Assembly: GCF_019957155.1 (NCBI RefSeq)
Contig: NZ_JAIPME010000002.1
Location: 124,001 to 188,000 of the forward strand
Length of the DNA: 64,000 bases
Direction of reading: 5' to 3'
Source of the DNA: Anaerococcus murdochii
GTDB taxonomy: Bacteria; Bacillota; Clostridia; Tissierellales; Peptoniphilaceae
In this document: one piece after another, positions 5,884 to 37,953 of the stretch
Layout: each line of letters starts with the position of its first letter
Numbering within the stretch: the stretch's first letter is position 1
Notes under the pieces: model-generated
What the model was told of the DNA's origin: nothing
Seen by the model: the letters and a program-made list of their open reading frames with translations, nothing else
The model's database searches: none
Made by a program: the position numbers and the translations under genes

Positions 5884-7725
5884 ATCGAGTAGGAGGTAAA
5901 TGATTAATTCATCTACCGACCTCTCACACCACCGTACGTACGGTTCCGTATACGGCGGTTCTACAATTTAATATGAACTTTATTGTAATAGCTGACTAGG
6001 GATATATAGCCCCTTTCAGCTATTCTTTTGTTGTTTAGAGCTCTGTTTAATACTGGGCTTTTGGCTATTCTCCAATAGGATTTGCGTGTATTTGCCCATT
6101 GCCAAGCTTGATATTTTGTTGTACCTAGTTTTACTAAGTTTGTAAATTTAGTTTTAATTTTCTTCCAGCTTTTCCATGCACACATTCTGATTCTTCTTCT
6201 TAACCATTCGTCTAGTTTCTGAAGATGATTTCTCATATTTGCTAGTTTGAAATATTGTATCCATCCTCTTATGATTTGGTTGATTTTTATTCTTCTTTGC
6301 CTATAGCCTAGTGCATTACTTCTGCTTGTTACTGCTTTTAGTTTTGCCGTTAGTTTCTTTAGGCTTTCTTTGTGTACTTTTAATTGGGTTCCGTTGTTAT
6401 GGTAAAATCCATATCCTAGATATTTTGTTTGGCTTAATTTTCTTATTGAGGTCTTTTCCTCATTGACTTTAAGCTTTAATTTTCCTTCTAACAGCTTTTT
6501 GACTCTTTTGTAGTATCTTTCGGCTGCTTTTCTATTTCTTGCAAATATTAGCATGTCGTCTGCATATCTTACAAATTTGTATCCCCATTTTTCAAGTTCT
6601 TGGTCAGCTTCATTTAGGTAGATGTTTGCGAGTAATGGACTTAGGGGACCGCCTTGTGGGACTCCTTTGTCTGATTTTACTTTTATTTCATCTATCATTA
6701 TTCCTGATTTTAGATATTTGTGTATTAAGGATATTACATCTCCATCTTTTATTTCTTCTGATAGGATTTGTATGAGTTTGGATTGGTTTACTGTGTCGAA
6801 GTATTTTTCTAGGTCTAAGTCTACTACCCAAGTGTATCCTTCTTCTGCTATTTCTTTTATCCTTTTTAGGGCATCATGTGCATTTCTATTTGGTCTAAAT
6901 CCATAGCTGTTTTCTGAGAATTTATTTTCATATATTGGGCTTAGTATTTGTGCTATTGCTTGTTGTATTACCCTATCTGTTGTTGTGGGTATTCCTAGAT
7001 TTCGTTTCTTACCATTTGATTTTGGTATTTGTACTCTTTTTACTGCTTTGGGCTTGTATTTCCTCGCTCTTATTTGTCCTAGTATTTTATCTTTGTTTTC
7101 TTTTAGATGTTCTAGGAGTTCTTCTGTTGTTATTCCATCTATTCCTGCTGTACCTTTGTTGGATTTTACTCTTTTAAAGGCTTCATTTAGGTTGTCTCGA
7201 TGGAGTATTTTCTCAATTAGTTCATTTTTGGTATTTTCTTTTGAGTTAATCTTATCATGACTGTGTCCAGCTAATTTATTTTCACTTTCCGAGTTATCTT
7301 TGATTAGTCTGGTTGATTTTCTACAGTCTTTGCCATGATTAGTTTCTTTCATAAATTTATACCTCCTGTAGTTCGGTCCTTCCTAGTTTTAACTAGTACT
7401 ATGACTTCTGCTGACTTCTCACTATTCGTTGTTACTACTGTTTCGTTAGTGAGACCTCCTCGGGTAAGGGCATGTTCTTTCCTCTCATCTATCTGCCACA
7501 TCTACATTTACGTATTCCGTGTAGTTTTTGGACTTTACTTTGTTGTGCAAGCTTATCCTACGTAACTGCCTTATATGATTTCTATTCGTCAGACCAAGAG
7601 TTTGCCTAGGGCTTCCTTCAGATTCCAGCTCACGATGGACACCCTTGCCTTTGGCTATGTGTTTCCCACTACCGGGCACACTTAGGACTTTCACCTGTTA
7701 GATTATGCTCATGCCGAGCGCACAC
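5884..7725 (-). mobile_element. Group II intron (ribozyme plus RT/maturase)
   Basis: About 1.84 kb. The minus strand begins GTGTGCGCTCGGCATGAGC at 7725 (5' splice-site type GUGYG) and contains AGGTGAAAGTCC shortly after, a usual group II domain I element. Downstream of the ORF lies a domain V-like hairpin (CCGTATACGG / CCGTACGTACGG region, 5925-5962), then a domain VI-like stem at 5887-5912 (GGTAGATGA pairing with TCATTTACC) and a 3' end at CTACTCGAT (5884). Ends are good to within a few bases. It sits immediately after the T-run of the tRNA-Arg terminator. Confidence 0.85.
5961..7352 (-). CDS. ltrA: Group II intron reverse transcriptase/maturase
   Basis: Intron-encoded protein of 463 residues that binds its intron RNA to promote splicing and reverse-transcribes it during retrohoming. 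RT fingers/palm motifs are intact: GTAGIDG at 68-74, SYGFRPNRNAHDAL at 149-162, VDLDLEKYFDTVN with the first catalytic aspartates, GVPQGGPLSPLLANIYLN at 230-247 and the active-site YADD at 263-266. A maturase/X domain follows (GYRQRRIKINQIIRGWIQYF). There is no HNH endonuclease domain; the protein ends shortly after WRIAKSPVLNRALNN. An AGGAGG site precedes the ATG. The gene looks functional. Confidence 0.95.
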   Translation of the reverse strand: MKETNHGKDCRKSTRLIKDNSESENKLAGHSHDKINSKENTKNELIEKILHRDNLNEAFKRVKSNKGTAGIDGITTEELLEHLKENKDKILGQIRARKYKPKAVKRVQIPKSNGKKRNLGIPTTTDRVIQQAIAQILSPIYENKFSENSYGFRPNRNAHDALKRIKEIAEEGYTWVVDLDLEKYFDTVNQSKLIQILSEEIKDGDVISLIHKYLKSGIMIDEIKVKSDKGVPQGGPLSPLLANIYLNEADQELEKWGYKFVRYADDMLIFARNRKAAERYYKRVKKLLEGKLKLKVNEEKTSIRKLSQTKYLGYGFYHNNGTQLKVHKESLKKLTAKLKAVTSRSNALGYRQRRIKINQIIRGWIQYFKLANMRNHLQKLDEWLRRRIRMCAWKSWKKIKTKFTNLVKLGTTKYQAWQWANTRKSYWRIAKSPVLNRALNNKRIAERGYISLVSYYNKVHIKL

Positions 7726-31653: not shown

Positions 31654-32333
31654 TTTTAACAAAGTTTGAAAATGGCAAAAAAAATTCCTACCAAGTTACA
31701 AATGGTTTTGGTTTTGATCAAATAACTCAATGTCAAAGCCAATTTGAGGATTGCTTTTGCTTAGAAATCGAAAATGACCCTGAGGATGAGAAATTAAAAC
31801 TACTTGTCATCCTCTCACCGATTTTTATTGCGGCCTTTGATAATGGAAATGTAGAACTCGAATTTCTTAAAAAAACCATAGAAAATTCTTCCCATCCTTT
31901 CGCCTTGTATCCAGATTTTTTTGGAAATTTTGACAAAGACCAATATTTCAAGGCTTATGAGGATAAAGACGAAGGGAAAATTACAGAAGACATAATTTTA
32001 AGGGAAGATAAGATTATAGAATTTTATTTCAATTCCCTACCAGAAGCCTACCTAAAATCTCTTCTCGCCATGGTTGATGGCCTGATAGAGGATGATTCTA
32101 ATAGACGTAATCTCTTGCATTATTTCGATCAAATGAGAGATGATATTGTTATAAATGGTAGAAGGTCAATTTTAGCTAATGGCATCCAGGCTTTTTATTT
32201 AAATAAATATGTAGTAGTGTGGATGCTCGATTTATTTTCCTTTATACAAAAAAATAAAGCTGACGTTTCTAGCTTTCTTGATCCAATCATGGACCTGGTA
32301 AATGACCTAAAAACGCCAGCCAATATTAAATAA
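31650..32333 (+). CDS. Hypothetical protein coupled to ybaK
   Basis: 227 residues, acidic, with no signal peptide or membrane span and no family I recognise. A Cys-rich patch (TQCQSQFEDCFCLEIEND) lies at about 27-44. The ATGA overlap with ybaK shows translational coupling. Its end overlaps the convergent ddh gene by 8 nt. Confidence 0.7.
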   Translation: MILTKFENGKKNSYQVTNGFGFDQITQCQSQFEDCFCLEIENDPEDEKLKLLVILSPIFIAAFDNGNVELEFLKKTIENSSHPFALYPDFFGNFDKDQYFKAYEDKDEGKITEDIILREDKIIEFYFNSLPEAYLKSLLAMVDGLIEDDSNRRNLLHYFDQMRDDIVINGRRSILANGIQAFYLNKYVVVWMLDLFSFIQKNKADVSSFLDPIMDLVNDLKTPANIK

Positions 32334-33279
32334 AATTTAGAAGTGAATCGTAAGATTCTTCTGATAAATATTTTGGGGCCACATCTAAAACGGTGATGGC
32401 TCCTTTTTTTCCTTCTTTAGCGAGTCTATAAAGTGCCCTAGCATAGGCAATGTCAACTGCTGCTGTAAAATCAGGATTTGATTCTAGATCGAGATTAAAT
32501 TCCATTAGTGCATTGCCTTCGCCACTTGCCTTGCCCCTTCTTATAACATGGCCGCCGTGGACCATTTTTTTGTGGTTTTTATCAAGGTCTTCTTGGCTAA
32601 TGAAGTGGACGAAAGTCTCGTATGGTGCGAAATAATCAGGCATAGTTTTTATTTTTTCTTCTATTATTTTCCTATCTGCCCCATCTTCGACAACTGCATA
32701 GACTTCTCTCAAATGAGCCTTGTGGCTATCAAAATCAAATTCCTCATCCTTTCTTATTTTATCCAAAATTTCAGGCTTTGGAATTGTATATTGTGTTGCA
32801 TCAAGGACTCCATCTATCGACCTAACTGCTGCCGAATGACCTTGGCTAACTCCCTTGCCCCATAGGGTGAAGTACTTACCATCTGGAAGTACAGCTTGGC
32901 CAATAATCCTATTTAGGGAAAATAAACCCGGATCCCAACCAGTTGATATAAGGGCCAAGTTCCCATTTTCCTTACCAATATTATCCATCTCGTGAAAATA
33001 ATCTTTAATTTTAGCATGATTATCAAAACTATCAAGAGTATTGAAGCTTTTTAATAACTCTGGCCCTTGGGATAAAATATCCTTATCTGATGACCCACAT
33101 AAAATTAATAAATCAATTTGATCTTTGTATTCATTTATATTTTCAAGTGGCCTATAAAGGTCTATATCTAGCTTTCTCCTAGAAAATATCCCAGCCACTT
33201 CCATATCAGAAATCGCATCAATGCCTTTTTTTACAGACCTTCCTAAATTTCCGTAACCAACTATTCCAACTCTAATCAT
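32326..33279 (-). CDS. ddh: meso-Diaminopimelate dehydrogenase
   Basis: NADPH-dependent amination of tetrahydrodipicolinate straight to meso-DAP, bypassing the acyl branches. The 317 residues start with a Rossmann motif (RVGIVGYGNLGRSVKKGI), followed by IFSRRKLDI, LALISTGWDPGLFSLNRI, GKGVSQGHSAAVR and HGGHVIRRGKASGEGNALMEF, all typical of Ddh. The ATG overlaps the end of the dap remnant by 8 nt. Its substrate requires DapA and DapB activity, which the adjacent remnant cannot provide. Confidence 0.95.
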   Translation of the reverse strand: MIRVGIVGYGNLGRSVKKGIDAISDMEVAGIFSRRKLDIDLYRPLENINEYKDQIDLLILCGSSDKDILSQGPELLKSFNTLDSFDNHAKIKDYFHEMDNIGKENGNLALISTGWDPGLFSLNRIIGQAVLPDGKYFTLWGKGVSQGHSAAVRSIDGVLDATQYTIPKPEILDKIRKDEEFDFDSHKAHLREVYAVVEDGADRKIIEEKIKTMPDYFAPYETFVHFISQEDLDKNHKKMVHGGHVIRRGKASGEGNALMEFNLDLESNPDFTAAVDIAYARALYRLAKEGKKGAITVLDVAPKYLSEESYDSLLNFI

Positions 33280-33923
33280 TGTCTCCCCTTATTACATCTT
33301 TAAAATCATACCTACCTGGTTTCTTTCCTTGTAAAAAACTTGCAGCCTTCAAAACCCCATTGGCAAAGATTTTTTTGGATGCTGCTTGGTGATTTATTTC
33401 AATAGTTTCATCAAGACCGGCTAGGATTAATCTATGCTCGCCAACTATTGTTCCCGCTCTCACAGAAGATATGCCAACTTCATTTGGATCACGCCTGTCA
33501 TCATGACTAAAATCTCTCATTTTCTTAAATAATTTGCCATCCCTGCCCCTATTTACTCCGTCAAAGATCATATTGGCAGTGCCAGAAGGATTGTCCTTCT
33601 TTTTGTTGTGGTGGCTTTCAACTATTTCTATGTCAAAATCTTTTAAGACCCTGGCAAGTCTTTCGGCTATATCTGTCATAACATTTATGCCAAGAGAATA
33701 ATTGCCTTCTTGAATAAAGGCTACACTTTCCCCGAGTTTCTTGATTTTAGAAAGGTCTTCATCTGTATAACCAGTTGTTGCAAATACTACTGGATAGGAT
33801 TTTTCTTTGGCAAATTCAATTATATGATCAAGTAAAAATCTTATCAAATGCCCTATAATCCACATTTAGATTTTCATCAAAAGGCGTGATTACAGCGACA
33901 GTTGATCCTGTGAATATCATCAT
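33272..33923 (-). pseudogene. dapB: dapA'-'dapB deletion remnant
   Basis: The first 27-28 codons, starting at the ATG that overlaps the asd stop, encode MIFTGSTVAVITPFDENLNV and onward, the N-terminus of dihydrodipicolinate synthase (DapA). After FDK the frame ends at TGA. In another frame the sequence continues as LLDHIIEFAKEKSYPVVFATTGY, which is the middle of dihydrodipicolinate reductase (DapB), and runs to the DapB C-terminus (ESHHNKKKDNPSGTA with the catalytic HH..K, then NHQAASKKIFANGVL). The DapB Rossmann domain (about 70 residues) and nearly all of DapA are missing. The DapB part opens at an internal ATG (33865) without a ribosome binding site. Nonfunctional unless the product acts by itself. 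Confidence 0.88.
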
Positions 33924-34897
33924 TACTCCTTTACTAAAAGTTCTGCGATTTGTACAGCGTTAAGGGCTGCACCCTTTCTAATATTATCTGCCACGCACCA
34001 TAAATTTAAGCTATTGTCACAAGAGAAATCTCTCCTAATCCTACCGACAAAAACCTCGTCTTTGCCGCTTGCTGTAGCAGGCATTGGATAAATTTCATTG
34101 GCAATGTCATCTTCTACTATGACTCCCGGTGTAGACTCTAAAACTTTTCTAATGTCATCAAGATTAAAATCTTTTTTTAACTTTAAGTTGATTGAAACAC
34201 CGTGAGCGTTAGAAACTGGTACTCTGATGGCTGTGGCTGTAATTTTTATAGAATCATCTCCCAAAATTTTTCTAGATTCGTTAACCATTTTCATCTCTTC
34301 TTTTGTATAGCCATTATCTAAGAAAGAATCTATTTGTGGAAGTAAATTGTCATAAATTTTATATTTCCAGTGGTCATTTTTCTTTTCATAGAGGTCTTCA
34401 AGAGCTCTTTCACCACCACCAGAAACCGCCTGATAGGTATTGTAAACAATTCTATCTATGCCGTATTCTTGATAAATATTCGCAATAGCAAGGACAGATT
34501 GGATTGTAGAACAATTTGGGTTTGCTATTAGCATATCTCTTTTCTTAATGTCACTAGGGTTCACTTCTGGAATTACAAGTGGCACGTCTTTATCCATCCT
34601 AAAACATGAAGAATTATCAACAACCCTGATATTGTTTTTTACAGCCAAAGGCACATATTTTTCTGAAACACTTCCACCTGCCGCAAATAAGGCTAGATCA
34701 ATTCCCCTATTATCAAAGGAATCTTCCTTTAATTCTTCAATGATTACTTTCTTTCCCTGAAACTCAATTTCTTTTCCTACTGACTTTTTTGAAGCGAAGG
34801 CAAAAAGCCTATCAACCGGGAAATTTCTTTCCTCTAGGATATCCCTAATCTTGCTTCCAACTAATCCACTTGCACCAACAACTGCTACATTTGCCAT
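33923..34897 (-). CDS. asd: Aspartate-semialdehyde dehydrogenase
   Basis: Reduces aspartyl phosphate to the semialdehyde that feeds lysine, threonine and methionine routes. 324 residues from the start MANVAVVGASGLVGSKI, preceded by AAGGAG; an upstream ATG in frame lies inside lysA. Catalytic Cys is in ANPNCSTIQS, with the substrate motif RVPVSNAHGVSI. TAATG overlap with the dap remnant. Intact. Confidence 0.96.
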   Translation of the reverse strand: MANVAVVGASGLVGSKIRDILEERNFPVDRLFAFASKKSVGKEIEFQGKKVIIEELKEDSFDNRGIDLALFAAGGSVSEKYVPLAVKNNIRVVDNSSCFRMDKDVPLVIPEVNPSDIKKRDMLIANPNCSTIQSVLAIANIYQEYGIDRIVYNTYQAVSGGGERALEDLYEKKNDHWKYKIYDNLLPQIDSFLDNGYTKEEMKMVNESRKILGDDSIKITATAIRVPVSNAHGVSINLKLKKDFNLDDIRKVLESTPGVIVEDDIANEIYPMPATASGKDEVFVGRIRRDFSCDNSLNLWCVADNIRKGAALNAVQIAELLVKE

Positions 34898-34898
34898 C

Positions 34899-36203
34899 TT
34901 ATTCTCCTTTATATTCACAATCATTTTTTATTAAATCATCTAAAGTTTCTCTTTTTACTGCAAGATAATCCTTGCCATCTTCAACAAAAACCACAGTCGG
35001 TTTTGGAAGTTTATTATAATTTGAACTCATCGCCAATGAATAGGCTCCGGTGTTTTCAATAGCAAGTATATCCCCTCTTTTTGGATAAGGAAGGTCGGTT
35101 TCTTCTATCAAAATGTCTCCCGATTCGCAAAACTTGCCTCCAACCCTAAATTTTTCATAATTTTTATCGTCAAGTCTATTTGCAATTAATGCATCGTACT
35201 TGGCCCCATAAAGGCTTGGCCTTATATTATCAGACATACCCCCATCGACAAAAACAAGTGGGAGGCCTTCAAGGGTGTGCTTAACACTACCCACACTATA
35301 AATCGTCGTTCCAGCCTGGTTAATCATAGACCTACCTGGCTCGATGCCGACCCTTGTGATCTTAAGCTTATAATCCTTGATTTTTTCCTCAATGATTTTC
35401 GCAAAGTCTCGTAAAAACTTTTCTAAATCAAAGTCTTTGTCATTTTTATTTTGTCTGACTCCAAAACCTCCGCCTAAGTTTAAATGACTAAAACTTTGGT
35501 CAGTAAGGTCTTGCATTTTCTTTGTAAAATCAAAGAGGATTTTAGCTTCTTCTTCAAAAAATCCAACTTCCATTACTTGGCTGCCTATGTGGGCGTGAAA
35601 ACCTAGTAAATTTACAAATTGGCTTTGGGCCATTTCCTTGATATAGGATTCTATTTTTTCATCCCTGATATTTATCCCAAACTTGGAATCAGCGTTTGAT
35701 GTTTGGATATACTTATGGGTTGAGGTTTTTACATCAGGATTAATCCTTAAAAGGCAATCCATCTTCTCGTCCATTTCCTTTAGGATTTCTTCTAAGAATA
35801 AAAATTCCTCGTAAGAATCTATAATTATTGTTCCAATCTTATTTTCTATGGCAAAAACAAGTTCTTCTTTGGTTTTATTATTGCCATGGAGATGGATTTT
35901 TTTAGGTTCAAAACCGGCCTTCATGCCTATATACATCTCCCCAATAGAAACCGTATCAAGAAAAAGGCCCTCGTTTTTAATAAGACCTAGCAAATACAAG
36001 TTTGACCCTGCCTTTGAGGCAAAACTTACCTCGCTAGCAAAGATATCTGATTTGAAATTTTCCCTAAAAGCCCTGGCTGTATCCTTAATTAGTTTTTGAT
36101 CATATATGTAAAGGGGCGTCCCATATTTTTTCCTTAAATATTCTACAGAAAGTCCACCAATATGGAGCATCCCATCTATATTTGTATAATTTTTCTTAAG
36201 CAT
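34899..36203 (-). CDS. lysA: Diaminopimelate decarboxylase
   Basis: PLP enzyme (fold III) turning meso-DAP into L-lysine. 434 residues. Lysine of the PLP site is in SFASKAGSNLYLLGLI, followed by HLHGNNKTKEEL, HIGSQVMEVGFF, LGGGFGV, EPGRSMINQAGTT and CESGDILIEE near the C-terminal barrel. First gene after the lysine riboswitch, so it is switched off by lysine. Confidence 0.96.
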   Translation of the reverse strand: MLKKNYTNIDGMLHIGGLSVEYLRKKYGTPLYIYDQKLIKDTARAFRENFKSDIFASEVSFASKAGSNLYLLGLIKNEGLFLDTVSIGEMYIGMKAGFEPKKIHLHGNNKTKEELVFAIENKIGTIIIDSYEEFLFLEEILKEMDEKMDCLLRINPDVKTSTHKYIQTSNADSKFGINIRDEKIESYIKEMAQSQFVNLLGFHAHIGSQVMEVGFFEEEAKILFDFTKKMQDLTDQSFSHLNLGGGFGVRQNKNDKDFDLEKFLRDFAKIIEEKIKDYKLKITRVGIEPGRSMINQAGTTIYSVGSVKHTLEGLPLVFVDGGMSDNIRPSLYGAKYDALIANRLDDKNYEKFRVGGKFCESGDILIEETDLPYPKRGDILAIENTGAYSLAMSSNYNKLPKPTVVFVEDGKDYLAVKRETLDDLIKNDCEYKGE

Positions 36204-36216
36204 ATATCCTCCATAC

Positions 36217-36410
36217 GAAAAAAATCACGGGCAAAAGGCCCATGATTTCCCTTTCGCCTGACTTAGCAAGTACTCCAGCAAGATTTGGCAAATCTTGCTG
36301 ACAATCATAGACCTATTCGACCTATGACCAATACCATGTATTTCGGCGGTTAGACCTTTCGTTACCTACTCATTGTAACCGCGACCCCTTGGCTAAATCT
36401 TTAATTATTT
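36217..36410 (-). promoter_or_regulatory. Lysine riboswitch (L box)
   Basis: Minus-strand features of the lysine aptamer are present: GGGGTCGCGG, GAGTAGGTAACGAAAGG, CCGCCGAAA, TTGGTCATAGG and GATTGTC. P1 is formed by GATTTAGC..AAG near 36391-36399 and CTTGCTAAGTC near 36260-36270. The expression platform is a terminator, AAATCATGGGCC / GCCCGTGATTT plus T-run, at 36217-36248. Lysine binding would terminate transcription before lysA. Confidence 0.92.
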
Positions 36411-36413
36411 ATC

Positions 36414-36442
36414 AGTCTATCAGATATTAGTGCTTTTGTCAA
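36414..36442 (-). promoter_or_regulatory. Promoter of the lysA operon
   Basis: TTGACA and TAGACT on the minus strand with a 17-nt spacer, just upstream of the riboswitch. Confidence 0.8.
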
Positions 36443-36491
36443 ATTTATGTTAATATTCATGCAAATATTTTTATTTTAATACCGATTGTTG

Positions 36492-36497
36492 TATAAT
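36492..36497 (+). promoter_or_regulatory. -10 element for aspartate kinase
   Basis: A perfect TATAAT 21 nt ahead of the GTG start; no strong -35 is seen. It is divergent from the lysA promoter and lies outside the riboswitch. Confidence 0.55.
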
Positions 36498-36518
36498 AGT
36501 GCCAATTAGGAGAATGAT

Positions 36519-37897
36519 GTGAAAATAACAGCTAAATTTGGGGGCTCATCTGTAGCCTCAGCCAGTCAAATAGAAAAAGTAGGACAAATCGTAAAAAATG
36601 ATGAAAATATAAGGGCTATTGTCGTTTCTGCCCCAGGAAAGAGATTTAAGGCAGATATAAAGGTGACAGACCTTTTAATCAGCCTTTTTGAAGAATATAA
36701 ATCACAAAGCCCAACTTACATAAAAACCTTGGATATGATTGTCCTCAGGTACACAGAAATCTCTGAAATTTTGGGTCTTGATAGAAAATTAGTGGAATCT
36801 TTTAAGGAAATACTTCTAGGATTTTTATCAAGTATTAAGGATGATTTTTATTTGGAAAATGCCATTAAATCTTCAGGCGAAGACTTTAATGCAAGGCTTA
36901 TTGCAGCCTACATGAATAAAATCGGAATCAAAGCCACCTATATGTCACCAAAAGATTTGGGAATTGTCCTTGAATACAGTCTAAATGATGTAAATATTTT
37001 AGATGAGACCTATAAGAATATCGGAAAATTTAAGGATAGGGATGAGCTCTTAGTTGTGCCTGGTTTTTATGGCTACAATAAGGATGGCGATAAGCTTACC
37101 TTCTCTAGGGGTGGATCAGATATAAGCGGGGCTATCCTTGCTAGAGGTCTTGGCTGCGATATTTACGAAAATTATACAGATATGACCTATATTTATTCAG
37201 CAAATCCTAGCCTTTTTGATAAGCCTGCGCCGATTAAAAATATTTCCTATGCCGAAATGAGAGAACTTTCCTACAATGGTTTTGAGATCTCCAAGAAGAT
37301 GCCGTTGAGCCCCTTCTTGATACAGATATTGAAATCCATGTCAAAAACACCAATAATCCAAATGAAGGCGGGACAATTATTTCAAAGGAAAGGACAGATG
37401 TGGATAAGAACCCTATTGTCGGAATGAGCGATGTTGGAGAATTTACTTCCTTTAAAATCACTGAATATTTGATGAATAGGAAGGTCGGTTATATCAAAAA
37501 CGTCCTTGATATTTTCCAATATATGCACATACCAGTTGAACATATTCCTACTTCAATAGATTCTATTTCTATCCTCGTTAGGAGCGAATATCTGGAGGAC
37601 AGCTCAAAAAAATCTTCTATAGTAAATGCAATAAACAATTCCTTTGACCTCGATGAACTAGTAGTTAGAGATTTTCTAAAATCCATTGCTATAGTTGGCG
37701 AGGGTCTAAAAGACCAAATGACCACGGCACTTTATATCATTTCTGACGTCTTAAATCAAAACCAAATTAAAATCGAATATATTATCCAAGGAGCATCTAA
37801 CAATTCACTTTTTATTCTAATTAATAAAAAAGATGAAAAATTATGCCTAAAATCCCTCTATAAGGCAATTTATGAAGATAAAGTCCTTGATAAGTAA
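36519..37897 (+). pseudogene. lysC: Aspartate kinase with a frameshift
   Basis: First step of the aspartate pathway. The gene starts at GTG after AGGAG (6-nt spacing) with MKITAKFGGSSVASASQIEKV and keeps SRGGSDISGAILARGL. After YNGFEI, near 37286-37292, the reading shifts: the expected FQEDAVEPLLDTDIEIHVKN continues only in another frame, which then carries GMSDVGEFTSFKI and the ACT domains to residue about 460. One missing T in GAGATCTCCAAG explains it. The frame 1 product would end at 302 residues without ACT domains; the second part alone has no kinase domain. A sequencing error cannot be excluded. Confidence 0.85.
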
Positions 37898-37907
37898 ATT
37901 AGTAAAG

Positions 37908-37946
37908 AAAAACCAGAGTCAGGATTCATATCCCGCTCTGGTTTTT
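37908..37946. terminator. Bidirectional terminator between lysC and CoA-transferase
   Basis: AAAAACCAGAG and CTCTGGTTTTT are complementary with a 17-nt loop; T-runs exist on both strands, serving the two convergent genes. Confidence 0.85.
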
Positions 37947-37953
37947 AAAATTC

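Follow-up and report, generated by a model that had tools for sequence, protein, structure and literature searches.

Within a lysine operon of Anaerococcus murdochii, the beginning of dapA runs directly into a dapB gene that has lost its front. Is this arrangement the debris of a recent deletion, a fault of the assembly, or a shortened gene with a use of its own, and what does it leave of lysine synthesis in the strain? The locus lies in a stretch of 64,000 nucleotides, here called the window, from an assembly of 2,249,959 bases in 2 contigs with 99.68% completeness (G000). This genome was compared with a genus set of 31 genomes, in which G000 itself is counted, and with a family set of 130 genomes. 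Anaerococcus sp. Marseille-P3915 (G005, corresponding to NZ_LT984887.1), which belongs to the same genus, served as the intact reference.

Organization of the operon in G000

On the minus strand the order is lysine riboswitch, lysA, asd, dapA stub, headless dapB and ddh. A divergent lysC stands beyond the riboswitch on the plus strand. The features are as follows, in window coordinates.

36260..36398, minus strand: lysine riboswitch aptamer upstream of lysA (RF00168, 71.5 bits against a gathering threshold of 30)
About 36218-36250, before lysA: hairpin and T-run resembling an intrinsic terminator (fold of 36204-36430, z-score -3.63)
34899..36203, minus strand: lysA, intact frame, 434 aa (TIGR01048, 424.3 bits against a cut-off of 297.9)
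33923..34924, minus strand: asd, intact frame (TIGR01296, 408.2 against 324.2)
33828..33923, minus strand: dapA stub, 31 codons and a stop (G005 DapA residues 1-29, tblastn 79%, E 3.5e-10)
33831..33839, uncertain by a few bases, minus strand: deletion joint dapA/dapB, where G005 has about 988 bases more
33272..33865, minus strand: dapB remnant ORF, 197 aa (PF05173, 140.9 bits; TIGR00036, 156.3 against 122)
32326..33279, minus strand: ddh (meso-diaminopimelate dehydrogenase), intact frame, 317 aa (TIGR01921, 363.8 against 180.6)
36519..37427, plus strand: lysC front part, before a frameshift near 37292-37319
37292..37897, plus strand: lysC back part in the other frame (listed as ORF 37400-37897)

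The original prediction, that the start of dapA is fused out of frame to the back of dapB, was confirmed: 31 dapA codons are followed by the 197-aa open frame. The stub begins with an ATG at 33923, keeps its own ribosome-binding site (AAAGGAG) and runs through codons 33923-33831 to a stop at 33830-33828, directly behind the joint. It gave no Pfam match, and the whole barrel with the active-site residues is absent. The dapB remnant lies in a different frame from the stub. Its ATG at 33865 sits in dapA DNA, with no Shine-Dalgarno-like sequence before it, and homology to DapB begins at about 33835; an in-frame TTG at 33847 has an AGGG three bases upstream.

Most of DapA is gone, as had been proposed. 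The loss from DapB is smaller than the NAD(P)H-binding half first supposed, for the 253-residue protein resumes not in its middle but near residue 67; about residues 1-66 are lost and about three quarters remain. The DapB_C domain is complete and only positions 82-124 of the 124 of DapB_N are present (1-81 absent); the remaining protein is 69% identical to DapB of G005. The N-terminal front of DapB binds NAD(P)H and carries a glycine motif, and this front is absent from the remnant. The remnant frame contains no stop codons. Gapless scoring against G005 placed the joint best between 33836 and 33834, where 135 of 200 bases agree against 134 for the adjacent placings, with 988 bases missing. Judged from G005, a deletion mediated by repeats was rejected: exact repeats shared by the two break neighbourhoods reach at most 9 bases there, and the longest is not situated at the joint. 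Microhomology in the parent sequence may still have played a part.

Around the joint, asd, lysA and ddh have the intact frames that had been claimed for them, each over its NCBIfam cut-off, and they and the riboswitch look intact in sequence. A second lesion in the region had been missed and lysC taken as uninvolved: the divergent lysC of G000 consists of two frames that meet near 37292-37319, while in G005 it is a single frame of 471 aa. Elsewhere in the window (5884-7639), a group II intron was found (RF02001, RF01998, RF00029), in which an ORF of 463 aa at 5961-7352 encodes a reverse transcriptase/maturase.

The same locus in related genomes

An intact dapA-dapB pair had been expected once to have stood between asd and ddh, and it was found at the same place in G005. 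There ddh, dapB (253 aa), dapA (294 aa), asd, lysA and the divergent lysC (471 aa) stand between the same neighbours. Given these intact orthologues at the corresponding position, the locus in G000 is very probably a deletion pseudogene made up of two predicted non-functional pieces. G000 has the gene set and order of the intact G005 operon for the lysine pathway via meso-diaminopimelate dehydrogenase (lysC, asd, dapA, dapB, ddh, lysA); unlike that operon, it has dapA and dapB deleted into one another and lysC frameshifted.

The DapB remnant used as a query matched 8 of the 31 genus genomes, and the other seven have frames of 252-276 aa. Full-length dapB is adjoined by dapA in 7/31 of the genus genomes, and dapA, dapB and ddh occur together in 7/31. 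Across the 130 family genomes there are 33 DapB_C matches, 31 of them in frames of 243-276 aa; one further match, in a 191-aa frame, is cut by a contig end, and G000 alone is headless inside a contig. On the locus comparison and these 33 matches, a fusion shared with sister genomes was rejected. Neither the shared fusion nor the ribosome binding site before 33865 that would have spoken for a conserved short protein was found.

The closest sister, G001, has flanks with 93.2% DNA identity (5486 aligned bases) and 95.7% (4097). In a MurE tree (a single gene from 30 of the 31 genus genomes, G015 being left out, with a midpoint root for drawing), G000 and G001 group together with support of 100/98, G006 joins them with 100/99, and the intact G005 lies outside. 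Between the same neighbours G001 keeps only the tail of lysA, residues 1-40 of Asd, a stretch of DapA (61-174) split over two frames, and residues 265-318 of Ddh. The DapA segment 61-174 is missing from G000, and G001 is without what G000 keeps; since the two genomes retain different pieces, neither set of lesions descends from the other. An earlier lesion common to both may exist, for example in lysC, of which G001 keeps almost nothing. Further relatives have lost the operon in other ways. G006 has 30 bases in place of window positions 32343-37949, G014 keeps a piece of ddh, the lysA of G003 has one stop near its end and that of G004 has several. In G003 the nearly complete lysA frame stands alone (L139, 5880-7130), and the stretch around it gave no match to dapA, dapB, asd or ddh.

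Age of the deletion

Judged from the sequences, the deletion either postdates the split between G000 and G001 or arose independently of it, because G001 retains parts of dapA that are absent from G000. It is mainly the different lesions of this sister that support the earlier suggestion of a recent event. The stop-free DapB remnant and the intact-looking riboswitch, lysA and ddh speak against simple decay, unless the lesion is young.

We also counted the protein changes unique to G000 and those unique to G005 at sites where outgroups agree. The truncated genes of G017, which are cut by contig ends, were dropped for LysA and Asd, leaving five or six outgroups. For the remnants the counts (G000 against G005) were 4 and 3 in DapB, 4 and 6 in the LysC front, and 5 and 5 in the LysC back; for the others they were 13 and 8 in LysA, 9 and 4 in Asd, 8 and 8 in Ddh, and 9 and 9 in the control MurE. 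The DapB and LysC remnants thus show no excess of change in a test that has little power, given the short branch since the G001 split. The excesses in LysA and Asd are small, yet they do not fit a simple picture of constraint.

Consequences for lysine synthesis and the cell wall

The substrate of the remaining enzymes had been predicted to be lacking unless dapA and dapB occur elsewhere, and no second copy of either was found in the genome of G000. No PF00701 match to dapA was found in G000 (the control matched in 14 of 14 named genomes), and PF05173 matches dapB at this locus only. A weak PF01113 match at C2:1155277 was rejected as a second dapB, being below the cut-off and belonging to a 430-aa protein of the DRL_cat oxidoreductase family. 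As the search turned up no further copy of either gene, the synthesis of tetrahydrodipicolinate, DAP and lysine should be blocked, and we infer that G000 is a lysine auxotroph that imports lysine.

The single asd match in G000 is the copy in the window. From C2:1076119 onward (L109) lie the intact genes of a second aspartokinase and, behind it, homoserine dehydrogenase, both over NCBIfam cut-offs. Probably asd has been kept for homoserine synthesis together with these two enzymes, because no other asd was found and homoserine synthesis needs it; ddh and lysA probably have no use left. Other aspartokinase-family matches were noted in open frames of 611-823 aa with one stop inside each, at G013:C23:119308, G005:C1:1149033, G012:C3:210467 and G002:C24:6646.

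The MurE of G000 has DDPK and lacks the DNPR motif of DAP-adding MurE. Among the MurE proteins of the genus, DDPK is present in 27/30, DNPR in 0/30 and neither in 3/30. PMC3829189 describes DNPR as typical of DAP-adding MurE and as not setting specificity by itself. Since DNPR is missing, the wall probably needs no DAP and would tolerate its loss, with lysine being taken up.

Explanation of the locus and its alternatives

The locus is very probably a deletion pseudogene of recent date, in a genus that loses lysine synthesis repeatedly. Directly observed were the joint, the intact operon of G005, the lack of other copies found and the different lesions of the sister. An ancestral operon would have read riboswitch-lysA-asd-dapA-dapB-ddh, and a deletion of about 1 kb would have taken the bulk of dapA together with the front of dapB, leaving two pieces without function. 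Without dapA and dapB, and with lysC frameshifted, the strain would rely on external lysine or peptides, and G000 would be one recent case of a loss repeated across the genus. The event is of an ordinary kind, a clearly staged gene decay; in close relatives different lesions have destroyed this operon.

That part of the operon is kept for salvage, with imported DAP or muropeptides decarboxylated by the riboswitch-controlled LysA, is very unlikely. The intact lysA and riboswitch of G000 fit such a role, as does the almost complete lysA that G003 keeps where dapA, dapB, asd and ddh were not found; yet lysA has one stop in G003, several in G004 and only its tail left in G001, and the retention of the operon's front may be due to the downstream asd alone. 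It is equally unlikely that such a half-pathway, with LysA making lysine from DAP scavenged from foreign bacterial cell walls, forms a semi-stable stage toward full auxotrophy. If true, salvage would point to cross-feeding of DAP between bacteria.

An assembly or sequencing error that conceals an intact dapA-dapB in the strain is very unlikely. The nearby lysC frameshift, which taken alone could be a sequencing error, lends it some support; against it stand the two-contig, 99.68% complete assembly, in which no dapA was found, the 9-base limit on repeats in the break neighbourhoods of G005, none at the joint, which makes a repeat collapse improbable, and the decay of the same operon in G001. 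Least probable of all is a short DapB made for a use of its own, such as cofactor-free binding or a scaffold: its open 197-aa frame, whole C-terminal domain, in-frame TTG behind AGGG and rate of protein change no higher than that of G005 (4 unique changes against 3, in a test of little power) are countered by an ATG lying in dapA DNA without a Shine-Dalgarno-like sequence and by the lack of any other uncut headless protein among the 33 DapB_C matches of the 130 family genomes.

The locus captures one step in the loss of a pathway, resolved to single bases, within a genus that holds intact, broken and empty forms of the operon. A known parallel is the loss of amino acid synthesis in human-associated bacteria, and PMC9026213 names Anaerococcus as one of the genera in which predicted amino acid synthesis varies most. 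What differs here is the intermediate stage of the loss, visible base by base in G000. Despite its missing front, the headless DapB exceeds the NCBIfam dapB equivalog cut-off (TIGR00036), and annotation or pathway callers may therefore report the enzyme as present. A dapB would then be counted automatically for a strain probably unable to make lysine.

The aptamer of G000 stands upstream of lysA, as in the usual lysine riboswitch regulon (RF00168). Unlike that regulon, it governs an incomplete lysine pathway in which asd is still present. Lysine riboswitches away from the lys operon were also seen in G027, G003, G004, G016 and G002, and in G028 (L150, 802-2424) one precedes a 540-aa protein of the NhaC-like Na+/H+ antiporter family, a candidate lysine transporter.
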